Assembly: GCA_903868595.1 (NCBI GenBank) | Contig: CAIPVV010000001.1 | Location: 1-64,000 of the forward strand | Direction: 5' to 3' | Source: an uncultured Pseudomonadota bacterium | GTDB lineage: Bacteria; Pseudomonadota; Gammaproteobacteria; Steroidobacterales; Steroidobacteraceae | Length of the DNA: 64,000 nt | Shown here: piece by piece, positions 19,227 through 26,168 of the stretch | How positions within the stretch are numbered: the stretch's first letter is position 1 | Layout: each line of letters starts with the position of its first letter | Program-made: the position numbers and the translations under genes | Notes under the pieces: generated by a model | What the model was told of the DNA's origin: nothing | What the model saw: the letters and a program-made list of their open reading frames with translations, nothing else | The model's database searches: none

Positions 19227-20318
19227 TCACCGCCTGCGCAAGGTAAACGCCAGGCGATTGTTGCCGTCCACGTAGCCGTATTCGGTGGCCTCGCAGAGAT
19301 TGCGAATGAGAAGAAGCCCGATATCCTCTTCCTCCTGCGATCCTTCCAGCAGGTTGCGCGCCTCTCCCGCCGATTTCACCAGCAGCTGCAGGCTACCGGT
19401 CTTCTCCGAGTAATCGATGCTCAGCTCAAGGGCTGCGGAGGCGAGCTGCGGCGCATGCAGCTGCACAACCTCCTCCACCAACGCAAGCAGGTCGTCACGA
19501 CCCTTCCTGGGGATGAACTGCTTCTCGCAAAACGCCTCGATCTCGCCATTCATCGCGTAGAAGTCAAAATCCCGCGACGCGATGTGGCATTGGTAGCTGC
19601 GGATACGGTTGATGAAGGCCCGCGTACGTGGCCGGCGGGGATCGCCGAAGAGCTGCTCAGGCGGGCCCTCCTCATAGATGACCCCCTCGTCCATATAGAA
19701 CACTCGATTGGATACATCCCGTGCAAAATCCATCTCGTGCGTGACGATAGCCATCGTCATGCCGTCCTTGGCCAGACGCCGGATGACGGAGAGCACCTCG
19801 CTCACCATCGTCGGATCCAGCGCCGAGGTCGGCTCGTCGAAGAGAATGATCTCAGGCTCCATCGCCAGGCAGCGCGCGATCGCCACGCGCTGCTTCTGTC
19901 CGCCCGACAGCTCTTCAGGAAAGCTATTGGCCTTTTCCGCCAGACCCACCAGGCGCAGAAGCTCCATCGCCTTCTCGCCAGCCTTCGCAGCCGTCAAACC
20001 ACGCAGCTTGATCGGCCCCAACGTCAGGTTCTCCAGAACCGACAGGTGCGCAAAGAGATTGAACGACTGGAAAACCATGTTCATTTTCTGGCGCACCGCA
20101 GGGACATCTGCACCGGGCGCCAGGATGTCGACCCCGTCGATGACAATGCTACCGGAGGTCGGGCTATCCAGCAGGTTCAGGCAGCGCAGGAACGTGCTCT
20201 TGCCCGTTCCGGACGGTCCGATGATCGACACGACCTCGCCCTTGCGGATCTCGGCGTTCACGTCCTTGAGCACCGTCAGGGCACCGTAGCGCTTGGAGAG
20301 ATGTTCGACCTTGATCAT
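19227..20318 (-). CDS. Polar amino-acid-type ABC ATPase fused to an RsbW-like HATPase domain
   Basis: Residues 1-240 are a complete GlnQ/HisP-type ATPase: Walker A GPSGTGKS (34-41), Q-loop FQSFNLF, signature LSGGQKQR (137-144), Walker B IILFDE (157-162), H-loop His194. These proteins normally end there. Residues about 241-363 are extra and follow the plan of an anti-sigma-factor-type HATPase: [16 protein letters not shown] in the N-box helix position, [10 protein letters not shown] where G1 sits, and [19 protein letters not shown] matching the G2 helix and end strand of the kinase at 14822-15235. Key residues are degenerate (no N-box Asn, no DxG). This part may therefore bind a regulator rather than phosphorylate. 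It overlaps the permease gene by 4 bp (ATGA). Confidence 0.88.
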
Positions 20319-22561
20319 GATTGCACTCCAGCCTTGCGGCGACGGGCCTTTGGATCCGTGGCCCGCTCCAGGTACTCCAAGAATTGCAGCAGCGCGAAGG
20401 AGATTATGAAATAAAGCACCGCCACCATCACCAGCGGGAAGAACGCATCGAAGGTACGGCTGCGGATGATATCGCTTGCCTTGGTAAGATCCTGCACCGC
20501 GATGTAGCCGACGATGGAGGTCATCTTCACGAGGGAGATAAACTCCCCCTTGTAGATCGGCAACACCCGCCTGACCATCTGCGGCAGCACGACGTTCATG
20601 AAGGTGCTGATGCGGGTAAAGCCCATGGCGATGCCGGCCTCCGTCTGGCCGCGGTCGACCCCCTCGATGCCCGTGCGGAATATCTCGGCCACGTAGGCGG
20701 CGAAGTTCATGCCGAAGGCCACCACGGCGACGAACACCGGGGAGATATCGACGGAAGCAAACACCACGTAGAAGATAAGCATCAGCAGTACCAGTACCGG
20801 CGTACCACGCAGGATGGAGATGTAGACCCTGGCTGGCGCCTGCACCCAGCGGTTGGACGACATGCGCAGAAAGCAGACCGCTGCGCCAAGCAGGGTGCCG
20901 AACAGCGTGGCCAGGATGGAGATCACCACCGTTGTCTTCAGCCCATCCAGCAGCAGCAGGTAGCGGTTCTCCGTCAGGATATTGCCGCGGAAACTGCTGA
21001 CGGTACGGTCCCAGAATCCCGGGCTCCCAGTGGCGCTCTTGGCTGACGGGCTCTCGCCAAGACTCGTGCGCAGAGCGAACGCGTTTGACGTTGCCTGGTA
21101 ATAGGGCTTGGAGAAATCGATGAGCTTCTGGCGTTCCTCGGTGATGAAGATGGAGGCAGAAATGGCGTCAACCTTTCCGCTGGCCACTGCCGCCACCAGC
21201 CCGCCGAACACCATGCTCTCAAAGCGCACCGGTCGACCAACCAGGCGCCCGAAGCGCTCCAGCATCTCGATATCAAGTCCGATGAGCTTGTTGTCAACGA
21301 CCCCTTCGAATGGCATGCCATCGGAGGAGGTGCCCACGACCAGCGGCGGCCCGCTTGGCTCAGGCGGCAGGTCCGGCATCACCCGCACGCGCTGCTCTAT
21401 CCAGCGCTTCTTCATATCGGCCATGGTGCCGTCGGCATTGATCTGGTCAAGAAATGAATCAAACTGCTGCCGCAGCGAGGCCGATGCCTTGCTGAAGCCA
21501 ACACCAACCCCGAATGGCAGCACAGGCTCGCCGAGAATGCCCAGTTCCGGCGCGGTGAGCAGCACCTCGCGCAGCGGATCGGTATCGATCAACCCCACGT
21601 CGGCCTTGCCGGTCCGGACCGACAGGATCATGTCGGATGAGGTGGAGTAGGTCTGAACCTGCGCCTTGGACCAGTGATGCGTGACGTAGGACTCCTGGGC
21701 CGAACCCGTCATGACCGCAACGCGCTTATCCTCCGCATCCGCCACCGTCTTAAGGGGTGCCGGCCCGGAGGCGGCTGCCGTACCCTGCCCCGCCTTGCGA
21801 GCCAGCAGCATCAGTGAATTGCTGAAATACTGATCGCTGAAATCCACTGCCTTGCGCCGCTCATCCGTGGCCGACATTCCAGTCACGATGATGTCGATCT
21901 TGCCGGACTGCAGGGCTGGAATCAGCGCCATGAACTTCATGTCCGTAAATTCGATCGGGCGATTCAGGTAGGCCGCTATGCGCCGGGCCATCTCGCCATC
22001 AAAACCGGTTACACGGCCGTTCTTATCAACAAAGCTTGCCGGTTCACGGGTTGCGGCAACGCCGACGCGAAGCGGCACACCGCTCTTCGGTACTGCGATG
22101 TCTGCCTCGACATACGGATCAAGGTCTGCCTTGAACCAGCGCTTCTCCATGTCGGCCAGCGTGCCGTCAGCCGTCAGCTTCGCCACCAGGGCGTTGACCT
22201 GGGAAAGCAGACCGCCATTGCCCTTGCGGATTGCCGCGGCCGTGGGCTCGTGGTCCAGCCGTTCTGGAATCATTGCCAGGTCCGGGTTGGTCTTGGCCAC
22301 CTGCAGCGCCTGCGGATAGGCCGTCATTGCCACGTCGACCTGTCCGGCCTTGAGCGCAGCTATCGCGTCGAGCATGTCGTCAAAGCTCTGCACTGTCGCG
22401 GCCGGAAAACGCTCTTTTGCCATTGGTCCGGCCGTGGAGCCCGTCATGATGCCGATCCGCGCATGCTCGGCGTCAGAGACGTTCTGGATGACAGGCTGCT
22501 GCTTCGCGCACCCCGCGACTGCCAGCAACGCAGTTATCAACGGGAGGATTAGATACTTCAT
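20315..22561 (-). CDS. Lipoprotein fusing several substrate-binding lobes to an amino-acid-type ABC permease
   Basis: The ATG at 22561 is preceded by GGAG and gives a lipoprotein signal with lipobox AVAGC (Cys18); the open frame upstream is not credible. The 748-residue chain contains: residues about 20-150, a second-lobe segment of an SBP_bac_3 domain; 163-395, a complete SBP_bac_3 domain ([45 protein letters not shown]); 405-500, a first-lobe segment only ([19 protein letters not shown]); and 535-735, a permease with the EAA-type loop [15 protein letters not shown]. The transported solute is probably a polar amino acid, judging by family. With the downstream ATPase this makes a two-gene importer. 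Lobe order is unusual (see findings). Confidence 0.92.
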
Positions 22562-23588
22562 AACGGTCCGCTCCAGGCTTCGGCACGAGCCAGCCTCGCG
22601 GTCGCGGGCGACTTGTCCAGGCCGGCAAATTGATCTTCGGTAGAGTTGCGTGGTGACTGCAGATCTAATCGCAATCCGGGGACCTGCGTGCACGGGAAAG
22701 GAACCACTATGGAGACGCTTACGGCCCGGCCAAATCACTGCAGCCTAGCGGGAAAGTCGTTGCACTGCCTTTTTCCCATCGCGAAAACGGACCTCGTACA
22801 GGGTTGTCCTCCTCCTGTGCGCGGCGCCGCGTTGGCGCCCCCCTGCCCACCACCCGGTCTGCGTCCTTGAGTATACAACACCGTTCTTGGCAAAAAAAAA
22901 GGGCGCGAGCAGGCCGACACGGACGGCAGTGGCGTTGGGGAGGTCCGGGGTTAGGCGTTTCCCCAGGCATGTCGGGACCGCCGCTGGAGATCTGTGCACG
23001 TAGCCGTCAATCCGAGTCAGGAGGCGGCGCGAGGGGAAGCCAGCTCGGCCGGTTGCACGCGGGCTGCCGGGCCCCGGGGCCGCCAGCCTGCCCTGCTGGG
23101 TGGCACGTGCCAGGGGTTTGCGCGCACAGCGTGCCAGCCGCGCAATCCCCGCCTGCACCGGCTGACCTTTTCGGATCCTATCGAGGCCCTCAAGCCATCC
23201 CCGGTATCGCGCCTGCAAGTCCGCCACCGTCACGGGCAGCTCGGCCCGCGCGCTCTGCAGGCCTTGCCGCAGTGGCTGCCAGCCGGACTGCAGTGCCGCG
23301 GCCGCCTACCGGCACACGACGCACCCCATGTCGCCGCGGCTGCAGGCGTGCACCCTCCTCAGCTTGTGCTGCGGGACGCCGCCCCGGCCTGCGCCGGGGG
23401 CCCTTGCAGTAACGACCTGGATGCAACGCAGAACTGCAAGTCCCGCAGTACCGAGGATCGATAGCCAGCAGCCAGAACGACCGCTGGCCCGGGCAACGCC
23501 CGGGTACGCGTGACCACGCGCCGGCTCTCGGCGTTGGATAAGCCCCCGGCCAACGCCGGGGGCTCCTGCGCCCGCGCGCGGAGCTGGC
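22562..23588. other. About 1 kb without a supported gene; cluster of hairpins at 23382-23564
   Basis: Open frames here have Arg/Pro/Ala-rich, motif-free translations and are rejected. The promoter of the ABC importer should lie around 22565-22700. A run of nine A (22893-22901) is the only AT-rich block in the middle. Four GC hairpins crowd 23382-23564: CCCCGGC/GCCGGGG (23382-23399), CCCGGGC/GCCCGGG (23488-23504), CGCGT/ACGCG (23507-23520) and the terminator-like stem annotated next. Confidence 0.5.
23541..23564 (-). terminator. Strong hairpin after the G8-domain gene
   Basis: AGCCCCCGGC (23541-23550) pairs perfectly with GCCGGGGGCT (23555-23564) around a 4-base loop. It is 25 bp past the stop of the minus-strand gene that ends at 23589. 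Only a short T-containing stretch follows, so Rho-independent function is likely but not certain. Confidence 0.55.
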
Positions 23589-26168
23589 TTACCGGCTGAC
23601 CTGGACGCTGGTTCCTCCGGCGCCAGGGCCGCTGAGGCGCGCCCCTTCCCCGTTGGAGACCACCTTGACCCAGAGCGAGTCCTTGTCCTTGTAGTACGCG
23701 GTGGTGTCGGCCTTGCGCAGCGCATCAAGGCTCTGCTGCTGCGGCGTGCCCACGCCGGCCGCGGAGAATCCCGGTAGTTGCAGGATCACCCACGAGCCAC
23801 TCTCCAGCTCCGTCACGTTCAGGAACATCGTCGGCCTTGTGGTGGTCACCGTGATCTCCGTACCGGCCCGTATGCTGCTGCTGGTTGTAGTGGACTGCCT
23901 GCCATTGCGACTCAGGACCACCGGTGGCGGGGCCGCCGCACCGCCGGCTCGGGCAACCAGACCACCGCCGGCACCCGGCAGGCGAGGGGCACTACCCAGG
24001 GCCGCGTTGGCAATATCCAGGCGCCCGATATCGCCCTTGCACACGGCCGCGTTCCAGGTGGGCTTGATCTCGCAGGCCTCATCAATTGCGATGCCGTTGT
24101 TGATGAGAACGAAGGCATCGGGCACACCGCCGACCGAGCCGTCCAGGTCGTGGAACACCGAGGTCAGATAGCTCCCGTTGCCGTAATCATCGTTGCTCCA
24201 CTTGCGCTCGATCGGTGGGAAATACACCGGCTTGGCATTGATGAATTTCGCGTGCTGTATGGTGTTGTTGGTGCTCATTCCAAAACTGGTATACAGCAGG
24301 TAGGAGATCGCTCCCGTCTTGCGCGTGGCGTTGTCCTGGTAATTCACGAAGGTGACATTGTCCAGTTCATGACGGTAATCGTAGAACTCGTAGCCGCGGA
24401 TCGGGAAATCCGCAAGCTCCGGCTCCGGCAAGCTGCGGCCGTAGGCCACTTCCGCCGGCGTCCTGGGGTTGCCGATATTCTCGGTTTCTCCCACGAACAG
24501 CGAGTCCACCACCCGTGACGTATAGGCGGAATGACCGAAGTTGGCGGACGCATGCGTGTAGCCGATCGCGTTGTCCGCCAGTTTCAGGTTCTTGAACAGG
24601 TCCATCTCACCGCGACTCCACATGCCGCCGTTGCGGTTCTTGTAGCTGGTGAAATCCTCGATGACCGTCTCCACCTGAGCGCTGTTCGCGTCAGCGGGAT
24701 TGGCCAGGGCGATATGCCCACCAGTCGCAAAATGGCCATCGGGCCTGGGGCCGCGGTCGGACATGAATCCGTCAAAGTTAGAATGGGCGGTATTGCCCTT
24801 GAACTCCCGTAACCGCATACGACGTGGCCAGGTTGCCTTGCTGACATCCGTGCCTTCGAACGCGCCCGTCGGATGCTCCGGCAGGGCGAACCAGAAACCT
24901 ATCGCCTCGGACCCCGCGGCTACGTTGTCCCGGTAAACATTGTCCGGATTGGTGATCCAGAAAGTCGACGCCGTGTTGTCGGAGGGGATCAGGACATCCT
25001 TCGCATTCTGGCCGGCCGTCAGGAAGTTCTGGCCGTCCCCGGGTCCGAACGGGGCAAGGTTAGTCGGAACGCAGGGTTTACCGTCGGGATGGCACTTGGT
25101 CATCATTCCGAGGTTGTGGATGAACTGGTTGCCCGTTTCCACTGCGTCTTCCAGGAAGAAGCAATGACCCACGGTGTTGTAGGTCACGTTGTTCTCCACT
25201 CGCACGTTGTTGGTCCCATGCACCGTCACGCAGCGACTGTAGGTGTCGTGAATTGACGAGTTGGCGATGTATTGTCCCTGGCCTTCGCCCAGGATGTGCC
25301 AGTGGATCGGATACCGGGCCAGATGCATGTTCTGACCCATCCGGTTCAATTCGATGCCGGAGACATACATTTTTGATCCGGCGACCGCCATGATATGCCC
25401 CCCGAAGTAGGAGCGTTCCGCGTCGGGCGAAGCCTGGATGAGAATATTTCGCGTCAGCAGGCCGACTTCGCCACGCTCGTCGACGCCGGCTGTGATTTGG
25501 CCGAAATGCATGTACTGAAGGGGTTGGTCCACCGTGATCACGTTCCCCGCAAGGGCGGCGATGGTTCGCCTCTCCGCCTGCGTGGCATCAAAGTCGGTCG
25601 ACGCAAGGACGATCACGTCTCCTTTTCGCCAGCCGCTGGCATTCAATACTTCGATCCGGGTGCTGCCGGCCTTGGCGGTTGCGGCGAGCTTGGTCCAGGA
25701 ATTCGTCCGGTCACCGTGCAGGTTCAGCGTTCCGCCGGAGAGCATGATCCCGCGGACACCCATTCCATCCAGCTCCTTGCCGGGCGTGTTCTCAGTGAGG
25801 GTGATGGTCGCCTTGCGCGTATGGGGCTTGGCTTCCGTGCCGATTTCCAGTTCCCCGTGCAGCATGATCCACTGGGTGGGCAGTTCGATGTCTGCTTTGT
25901 CCGAGAAGCTGAGCTTTCCTTCGATGTGCAAGCCGCCCAGCGATGGTGGACTGACGTCGAGGAGCACATTTTTGCCGCTCTCAATGGTCACAGTGTCCCC
26001 TGGTCCGGGCACCTTTCGGCCTGGCCACGTGGCTGGATTGGACCAGAGCTCCTGCTCGGCTGCGTGCGCTCCGTGCTCATGAGCCGCCGCAACTGCGTCC
26101 GCAGCGCTGGCGAGGAGGAAGGCCGGAACGAGCAACGCAAAAAGGAACGAGCGATCTATTTTTCTCAT
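23589..26168 (-). CDS. Secreted G8-domain protein resembling animal CEMIP/TMEM2 hyaluronidases
   Basis: An 859-residue protein with an N-terminal signal peptide (about 1-29). A G8 domain follows (about 40-160: LWSNPATWPGRKVPGPGD, IEGKLSF, WIMLHGELEIGT). The long body is a right-handed beta-helix whose motifs parallel vertebrate CEMIP/KIAA1199 and TMEM2: LARYPIHWH, SIHDTYSRCVTVHG, YNTVGHCFFLED, TFWITNPDN, AAGSEAIGFWFALPEHPTG, DSLFVGETENIGN, FPIRGYEFYD and SVFHDLDGSVGG. Those animal proteins bind and depolymerise hyaluronan. Here a periplasmic or secreted polysaccharide-processing role is inferred; hyaluronan itself as substrate is unproven. There is no C-terminal PANDER-like domain; residues from about 720 are low-complexity and then a short beta-rich tail. 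The gene stands alone, with an AGGG site before the ATG. Confidence 0.88.
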   Translation of the reverse strand: MRKIDRSFLFALLVPAFLLASAADAVAAAHEHGAHAAEQELWSNPATWPGRKVPGPGDTVTIESGKNVLLDVSPPSLGGLHIEGKLSFSDKADIELPTQWIMLHGELEIGTEAKPHTRKATITLTENTPGKELDGMGVRGIMLSGGTLNLHGDRTNSWTKLAATAKAGSTRIEVLNASGWRKGDVIVLASTDFDATQAERRTIAALAGNVITVDQPLQYMHFGQITAGVDERGEVGLLTRNILIQASPDAERSYFGGHIMAVAGSKMYVSGIELNRMGQNMHLARYPIHWHILGEGQGQYIANSSIHDTYSRCVTVHGTNNVRVENNVTYNTVGHCFFLEDAVETGNQFIHNLGMMTKCHPDGKPCVPTNLAPFGPGDGQNFLTAGQNAKDVLIPSDNTASTFWITNPDNVYRDNVAAGSEAIGFWFALPEHPTGAFEGTDVSKATWPRRMRLREFKGNTAHSNFDGFMSDRGPRPDGHFATGGHIALANPADANSAQVETVIEDFTSYKNRNGGMWSRGEMDLFKNLKLADNAIGYTHASANFGHSAYTSRVVDSLFVGETENIGNPRTPAEVAYGRSLPEPELADFPIRGYEFYDYRHELDNVTFVNYQDNATRKTGAISYLLYTSFGMSTNNTIQHAKFINAKPVYFPPIERKWSNDDYGNGSYLTSVFHDLDGSVGGVPDAFVLINNGIAIDEACEIKPTWNAAVCKGDIGRLDIANAALGSAPRLPGAGGGLVARAGGAAAPPPVVLSRNGRQSTTTSSSIRAGTEITVTTTRPTMFLNVTELESGSWVILQLPGFSAAGVGTPQQQSLDALRKADTTAYYKDKDSLWVKVVSNGEGARLSGPGAGGTSVQVSR

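Follow-up and report, generated by a model that had tools for sequence, protein, structure and literature searches.

A secreted bacterial G8 and CEMIP-type beta-helix protein that shares the core of human TMEM2 and lacks both lectin-like domains

The window analysed here, 64,000 nucleotides of contig CAIPVV010000001.1 from an uncultured member of the Steroidobacteraceae (assembly GCA_903868595.1), carries on its minus strand a gene for an 859-aa secreted protein with a G8 domain and a CEMIP-type beta-helix (23589-26168; all features of the protein given below lie on this strand), as defined by its open reading frame and by Pfam, HMMER and Foldseek searches. The gene is flanked by an ABC transporter of the amino-acid type, a protein that matches no Pfam family, and genes for a STAS protein and a GMC oxidoreductase. 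Separately, we note an 807-aa ORF on the minus strand (20315-22738) that fuses three SBP_bac_3 solute-binding matches to an ABC permease domain; an ABC ATPase with an extra C-terminal stretch of more than 100 aa adjoins it (19227-20318). The start codon of the 859-aa ORF is common to close relatives (MRK...), a GAAGG element lies immediately upstream, and the GC3 of 0.77 matches that of the adjoining transporter genes (0.77-0.79), so that the gene looks natively bacterial. Eukaryotic contamination was rejected because the neighbouring genes, the start and the codon use are bacterial and paralogues are spread over the genus.

Residues 1-28 (MRKIDRSFLFALLVPAFLLASAADAVAA; 26085-26168) form an N-terminal export signal as judged by eye, and the hydrophobic N terminus is kept among relatives. 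The G8 domain follows at residues 47-162 (25683-26030; Pfam E 3.2e-30, 105 bits against a cut-off of 22.9) and corresponds to the domain that makes up the first portion of the beta-helix in the human TMEM2 ectodomain structure 8C6I (PMC10206443). A short junction (residues 168-176; 25641-25667), located through HMMER alignments and the published descriptions of TMEM2 (PMC10206443, PMC10276149), leads to the beta-helix, in which the CEMIP_beta-hel domain PF24606 takes up residues 254-466 (24771-25409; E 2.2e-81, 273 bits against a cut-off of 27.3). Both Pfam matches recur in 24 of 24 aligned relatives. The only other Pfam match is a weak generic Beta_helix, NCBIfam gives none, and neither collection matches the protein to a classical hyaluronidase family (GH56, PL8 or others), in agreement with an earlier note on this DNA that had placed it outside those families.

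The remaining beta-helix and the region after it (residues 467-717; 24018-24770), delimited by HMMER alignments, are followed by a Gly/Ala/Pro-rich linker whose length varies between aligned relatives (residues 718-748; 23925-24017) and by a C-terminal domain that the predicted model renders as all-beta (residues 749-859; 23592-23924). This last domain matches no Pfam family, and sequence searches of the PDB, PHROGs and phage sequences returned nothing or chance matches. We also note that nearly every member of the clade of close relatives (the window clade), whether from Gammaproteobacteria, Alphaproteobacteria or Acidobacteriota, ends in V-S-R (23589-23600 in the window), which may be a last strand or serve as a sorting signal.

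Among all PDB sequences the sole match is 8C6I, with E-values of 8.5e-88 for the single protein, 1.1e-124 for a 24-sequence profile and 6.8e-124 for a broader profile; the first two of these exclude chance similarity to TMEM2. The earlier note had described a G8 domain and a series of motif blocks in the order of the animal proteins. Indeed, every motif aligns collinearly with TMEM2 in HMMER (bacterial/TMEM2 pairs RYPIHWH/RYPVHFH, SRCVTVHG/SRCITVHG, GHCFFLED/GHCFFLED, TFWITNPDN/TFWIAHPNN, SLFVGETENIGN/SLFVGESRNYGF, FPIRG/FPIRG and SVFHDLDGSV/SIFHDIDGSV). The similarity spans residues 56-164 and 174-717 and beyond, with a core identity of 36.7% over 523 positions. Residues 467-717 are homologous to TMEM2 up to about its residue 996 (SLFVGE, FPIRG, FHDLDGSV), and the cysteines C699/C710 correspond to TMEM2 C978/C989.

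This relationship is equally apparent in the fold. An AlphaFold2 model of the 859-aa protein (pLDDT 70.5, pTM 0.69, with low confidence across much of residues 338-450) has 8C6I as its top PDB match in Foldseek (E 7.4e-36, TM 0.71 normalised by query), while the next PDB matches, a capsule lyase and phage depolymerases, fall below TM 0.2 and the AlgG alginate epimerase matches weakly (E 0.067). The TMEM2-type fold is thus found in bacteria, as had been proposed, and the likeness reaches well past G8 and generic beta-helix coils. In the favoured reading the bacterial protein and the core of animal CEMIP, TMEM2 and PKHD1L1 descend from one ancestor, as sequence and fold show in the case of TMEM2.

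The close likeness to CEMIP/TMEM2 claimed earlier holds for this core by sequence, domain models and fold, but the absence of the GG/lectin-like insert after G8 had been overlooked. In HMMER the first aligned block reaches residue 167 (TMEM2 249), and the alignment resumes at residue 174-176 (TMEM2 423); 8C6I residue numbers are chain positions plus 82, a conversion that agrees with the N at chain position 166, the residue that Sato et al. give for human TMEM2 248. About 174 TMEM2 residues, comprising a small beta-sandwich and the lectin-like/GG domain 1, are replaced by eight in the bacterial protein. The second lectin-like domain is also absent, since only about 110 residues without family match remain past residue 748. 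The changes reported to abolish activity (R265, D273, D286, H248 with A303, and CEMIP R187) all lie within the GG domain (PMC10206443, PMC10276149), and mapping them onto the bacterial protein yielded no counterparts because this region is missing. The bacterial G8 and CEMIP beta-helix protein therefore departs from the animal architecture by having neither lectin-like domain and is the minimal core of CEMIP/TMEM2.

With the lectin-like domains missing, the substrate probably differs from the animal one and may be an environmental or bacterial acidic polysaccharide; in the animal proteins, the extra domains may serve hyaluronan capture. That the bacterial protein is a true hyaluronidase in the narrow sense, acting on hyaluronan or on similar glycosaminoglycans of animals or bacteria, we regard as improbable. 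Its closest characterised homologue is indeed a (disputed) hyaluronidase with the core identity given above, but the GG/lectin-like domain considered indispensable for hyaluronan breakdown (PMC10276149) is absent and the loci have no hyaluronan-utilisation neighbours. A search of the genome for a PL8 lyase gave no match, but neither did its control, so that it carries no weight here.

Analysis of conservation singles out a set of residues shared by the window clade, all seven distant bacterial G8 proteins and TMEM2, namely W180, D184, T191, E199, R240, H258, R285, Y286, H289, H291, H317, E340, E344, N352, N415 and N459, with D184 differing in three close relatives. An independent 22-sequence alignment finds the same polar set invariant or nearly so, and from E199 to N459 each listed residue has zero exceptions in the 71-80 sequences with a residue there, counted in an HMM-based alignment of family ORFs that includes many close relatives; for the eight cluster residues H258 to E344 the number is 72-78, and with E199 and R240 added it is 71-78. 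The TMEM2 counterparts H519, R546, Y547, H550, H552, H585, E608 and E612 are identical. We designate residues 258-344 (25137-25397), with the His/Glu/Arg cluster H258, R285, Y286, H289, H291, H317, E340 and E344, as a candidate metal or active site. The predicted secondary structure places H258, H289/H291 and H317 on strands 257-261, 288-291 and 314-317, and E340 just past 337-338; a spacing of 23-31 residues would stack the cluster on successive helix rungs.

This placement coincides with a metal site reported for the animal protein. H291 is equivalent to TMEM2 His552, which is described as belonging to a nickel site of 8C6I, one that 'might mediate catalytic functions' (PMC11043200), and one Ni2+ is listed in the refined model (Niu et al., PMC10206443). 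The polar cluster had been derived before the report of this Ni2+ site was found. The equivalent residue of PKHD1L1, His2479, is changed to Gln (H2479Q, homozygous) in a child with deafness, who also has a confounding MYO7A variant (PMC11043200). As for the catalytic centre, which the earlier note had thought probably present in bacteria, the reported residues of the GG region are lacking but the invariant His/Arg/Glu cluster at the reported Ni2+ site is conserved, which leaves its presence plausible. From this conservation we infer that the His/Glu/Arg cluster, rather than the GG domain, would be the catalytic centre. A chondroitinase B-type site, in which a beta-helix lyase holds a catalytic Ca2+ on two acidic residues (E243/E254), has only one of the two in TMEM2 (Niu et al., PMC10206443). 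Separately, a copy in an Altererythrobacter MAG (L014, 89-2707) misses about 29 residues including RYPIHWH, with the remainder intact; this may reflect decay of the copy, a fault in the assembly or a natural variant that has lost the site.

In TMEM2, two loops (627-662 and 733-756) lie over the mid-helix face (PMC10206443). The counterpart of the first is a long loop at residues 359-402 (24963-25094), recognised from conservation and that structure, in which C359/C366 and SDN396-398 are invariant in the clade. This loop may act as a lid over the candidate site.

The assembly of the window (3.03 Mb in 61 contigs, 94% complete) contains more copies of the gene on contigs C22 (two in tandem) and C55. 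Two of these (C22, 27229-29004; C55, 45348-47210) are cut by contig ends, so that short-read assemblies probably show fewer copies than are really present. The gene is present in eight of nine congeneric genomes, several with many copies, and tandem arrays of three or four occur at some loci (L015, L020). An apparently identical relative occurs in a genome of the same family (L037) and in a Steroidobacteraceae record (L006). Elsewhere the gene is rare: it was found in 3 of 398 sampled genomes of the phylum, the window's own included, and in 4 of 198 of the phylum of an Acidiferrales record, that record included. A MAG labelled Klebsiella pneumoniae (L022, CAMDML010000001.1) has two tandem copies, and the label is doubtful because the full-length copy clusters with environmental Gammaproteobacteria.

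Bacterial G8 proteins are already in annotation databases as 'G8 domain-containing protein', and plasmid-borne relatives so named include those of Croceibacterium (60% identity), Vitreoscilla (34%) and Planctomyces (27%). On an 89-kb plasmid of Croceibacterium atlanticum (L058, L072), two G8 genes in opposite orientation lie on either side of genes for a TonB receptor, a MarR regulator and two DUF6152 proteins. Open-access literature searches, with subscription papers outside their scope, returned no work on bacterial members of the family. Searches of phage genomes, IMG/VR and PHROGs gave no match, and the BFVD fold matches are generic beta-helices; a phage or viral origin was rejected on these grounds.

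Identity to human TMEM2 across window residues 176-717 is 33-38% for the bacterial clade but 19-25% for seven distant bacterial G8 proteins, which show 21-33% identity to the window protein. The clade thus resembles TMEM2 more than it does other bacterial G8 proteins. In a tree, too, TMEM2 groups with the window clade apart from the distant bacterial G8 proteins (92/94), but its branch is very long and the tree does not separate a position of TMEM2 sister to the clade from one nested within it (AU p 0.26). Human TMEM2 is the one animal sequence in this tree, which for that reason does not settle the direction of transfer.

Comparison of the copies' surroundings revealed no conserved gene neighbourhood and no polysaccharide-utilisation locus, and a function based on operon context was rejected on this ground. 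TonB receptors lie near roughly nine of about 40 loci, but with 26-46 receptors per genome of about 3 Mb this is, by rough arithmetic, close to expectation and not clearly above chance. Some loci (L083, L086, L029/L088, L089) share neighbour clusters that encode exported proteins of about 795 and 459 aa, with a DUF1800 protein at L083. The window's genome has one GH88-type gene, whose product could process unsaturated uronide products.

We favour, with a probability of roughly 0.55, the reading that the protein is a secreted metal-dependent beta-helix enzyme that would cleave an extracellular polysaccharide, its activity, metal and substrate being inferred. The exported right-handed helix would hold the chain in its concave face, against a site built from successive rungs (H258; R285, Y286, H289 and H291; H317; E340 and E344), part of which would bind a divalent, probably transition, metal, and the loop 359-402 would close over it as a lid. 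We count in favour of this reading the two Pfam domains, the match to TMEM2 in sequence and in fold, the invariant polar cluster together with the Ni2+ site reported at H552, the beta-helix polysaccharide lyases and phage depolymerases among the weaker fold matches, and the GH88-type gene in the genome; an exported environmental enzyme would also be in keeping with the export signal and with the gene's presence, often as multiple copies, in eight of nine congeneric genomes. Against it we count the disputed activity of TMEM2, the location of the published loss-of-function residues in the missing GG region, the absence of a conserved neighbourhood or polysaccharide-utilisation locus, and the low model confidence in much of residues 338-450.

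The invariant cluster could instead be a structural metal site. The protein would then be a non-catalytic exported glycan-binding or surface protein in which the His/Glu cluster staples the rungs together, and CEMIP and TMEM2 would act indirectly. This is in keeping with the purified TMEM2 ectodomain, which crystallised well and was without hyaluronidase activity in one laboratory (PMC10206443), with the report by Sato et al. that human TMEM2 is non-catalytic (PMC10276149), and with the lineage-specific tandem expansion, which also suits surface proteins. However, another laboratory reports intrinsic activity for purified TMEM2, a structural staple needs no additional invariant R240, R285, Y286, E340 and E344, and the weaker fold neighbours are depolymerases and lyases. 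On balance we consider this non-catalytic role unlikely, though deserving of serious attention. It seems very improbable that the protein is an enzyme that modifies the cell's own exopolysaccharide, for example in an epimerase-like manner, rather than depolymerising it: beta-helix enzymes do include alginate epimerases such as AlgG, and a His/Arg/Tyr site would suit uronate chemistry, but no exopolysaccharide biosynthesis operon surrounds the copies and the homologues are associated with depolymerisation.

The reading as a metal-dependent enzyme bears on an open dispute, as both the hyaluronidase activity of human TMEM2 and the position of its active site are contested. The inactive TMEM2 preparation was purified on a HisTrap (nickel) column and its crystal carried Ni2+ (Niu et al., PMC10206443). 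The active purified preparation of the other laboratory came from cobalt resin. If the native metal is exchangeable, the choice of nickel or cobalt for purification could explain part of the conflict. We therefore put forward, tentatively and as somewhat less than an even bet, that the cluster around H291 is the catalytic metal centre of the whole CEMIP/TMEM2/PKHD1L1/bacterial G8 family, that activity needs a native, probably transition, metal, that the TMEM2 conflict would at least partly reflect a nickel-loaded inactive and a cobalt-purified active preparation, and that the bacterial proteins would offer this enzyme in its minimal and tractable form. Metal exchange would not explain the cell-based negative result of Sato et al. 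for human TMEM2 (PMC10276149).

As a homologue without GG domains, the bacterial protein isolates the helix from the lectin domains, and deep conservation singles out about ten residues around the metal seen in the human crystal. These residues can be mutated in TMEM2 and the bacterial protein alike and the metal can be varied; the nickel/cobalt split that matches the inactive and active preparations suggests a cheap and direct test. Since the site is altered in the deafness family, an activity assay on the bacterial stand-in would bear on human disease variants.

Compared with known systems, the G8 proteins of Vitreoscilla, Planctomyces and Roseobacteraceae (Leisingera plasmids) have like domains but are 23-34% identical, with tblastn similarity that stops by about residue 480, whereas the Croceibacterium protein, also alike in domains, lies within the range of the window clade. 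Polysaccharide lyases of the beta-helix type and phage depolymerases (for example the K1 lyase 7W1D) share the right-handed beta-helix fold, but with the TM-scores below 0.2 noted above and no sequence match. PKHD1L1 and fibrocystin likewise place a TMEM2-like beta-helix after G8, with His2479 at the position of H291 (PMC11043200), but are very large multi-IPT membrane proteins. CEMIP (HYBID, KIAA1199), compared by domain model, is a secreted G8 and beta-helix protein with the Pfam CEMIP_beta-hel domain; unlike the bacterial protein it has GG domains, including the R187 reported as essential. TMEM2 (CEMIP2) differs in having a transmembrane anchor where the bacterial protein has a signal sequence, and the bacterial linker and C-terminal beta domain of about 110 residues leave no room for lectin-like domain 2. 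The two nevertheless share G8 and a continuous right-handed beta-helix, the order of motifs, the Cys pair and the whole His/Glu/Arg cluster, including the counterpart of H552.
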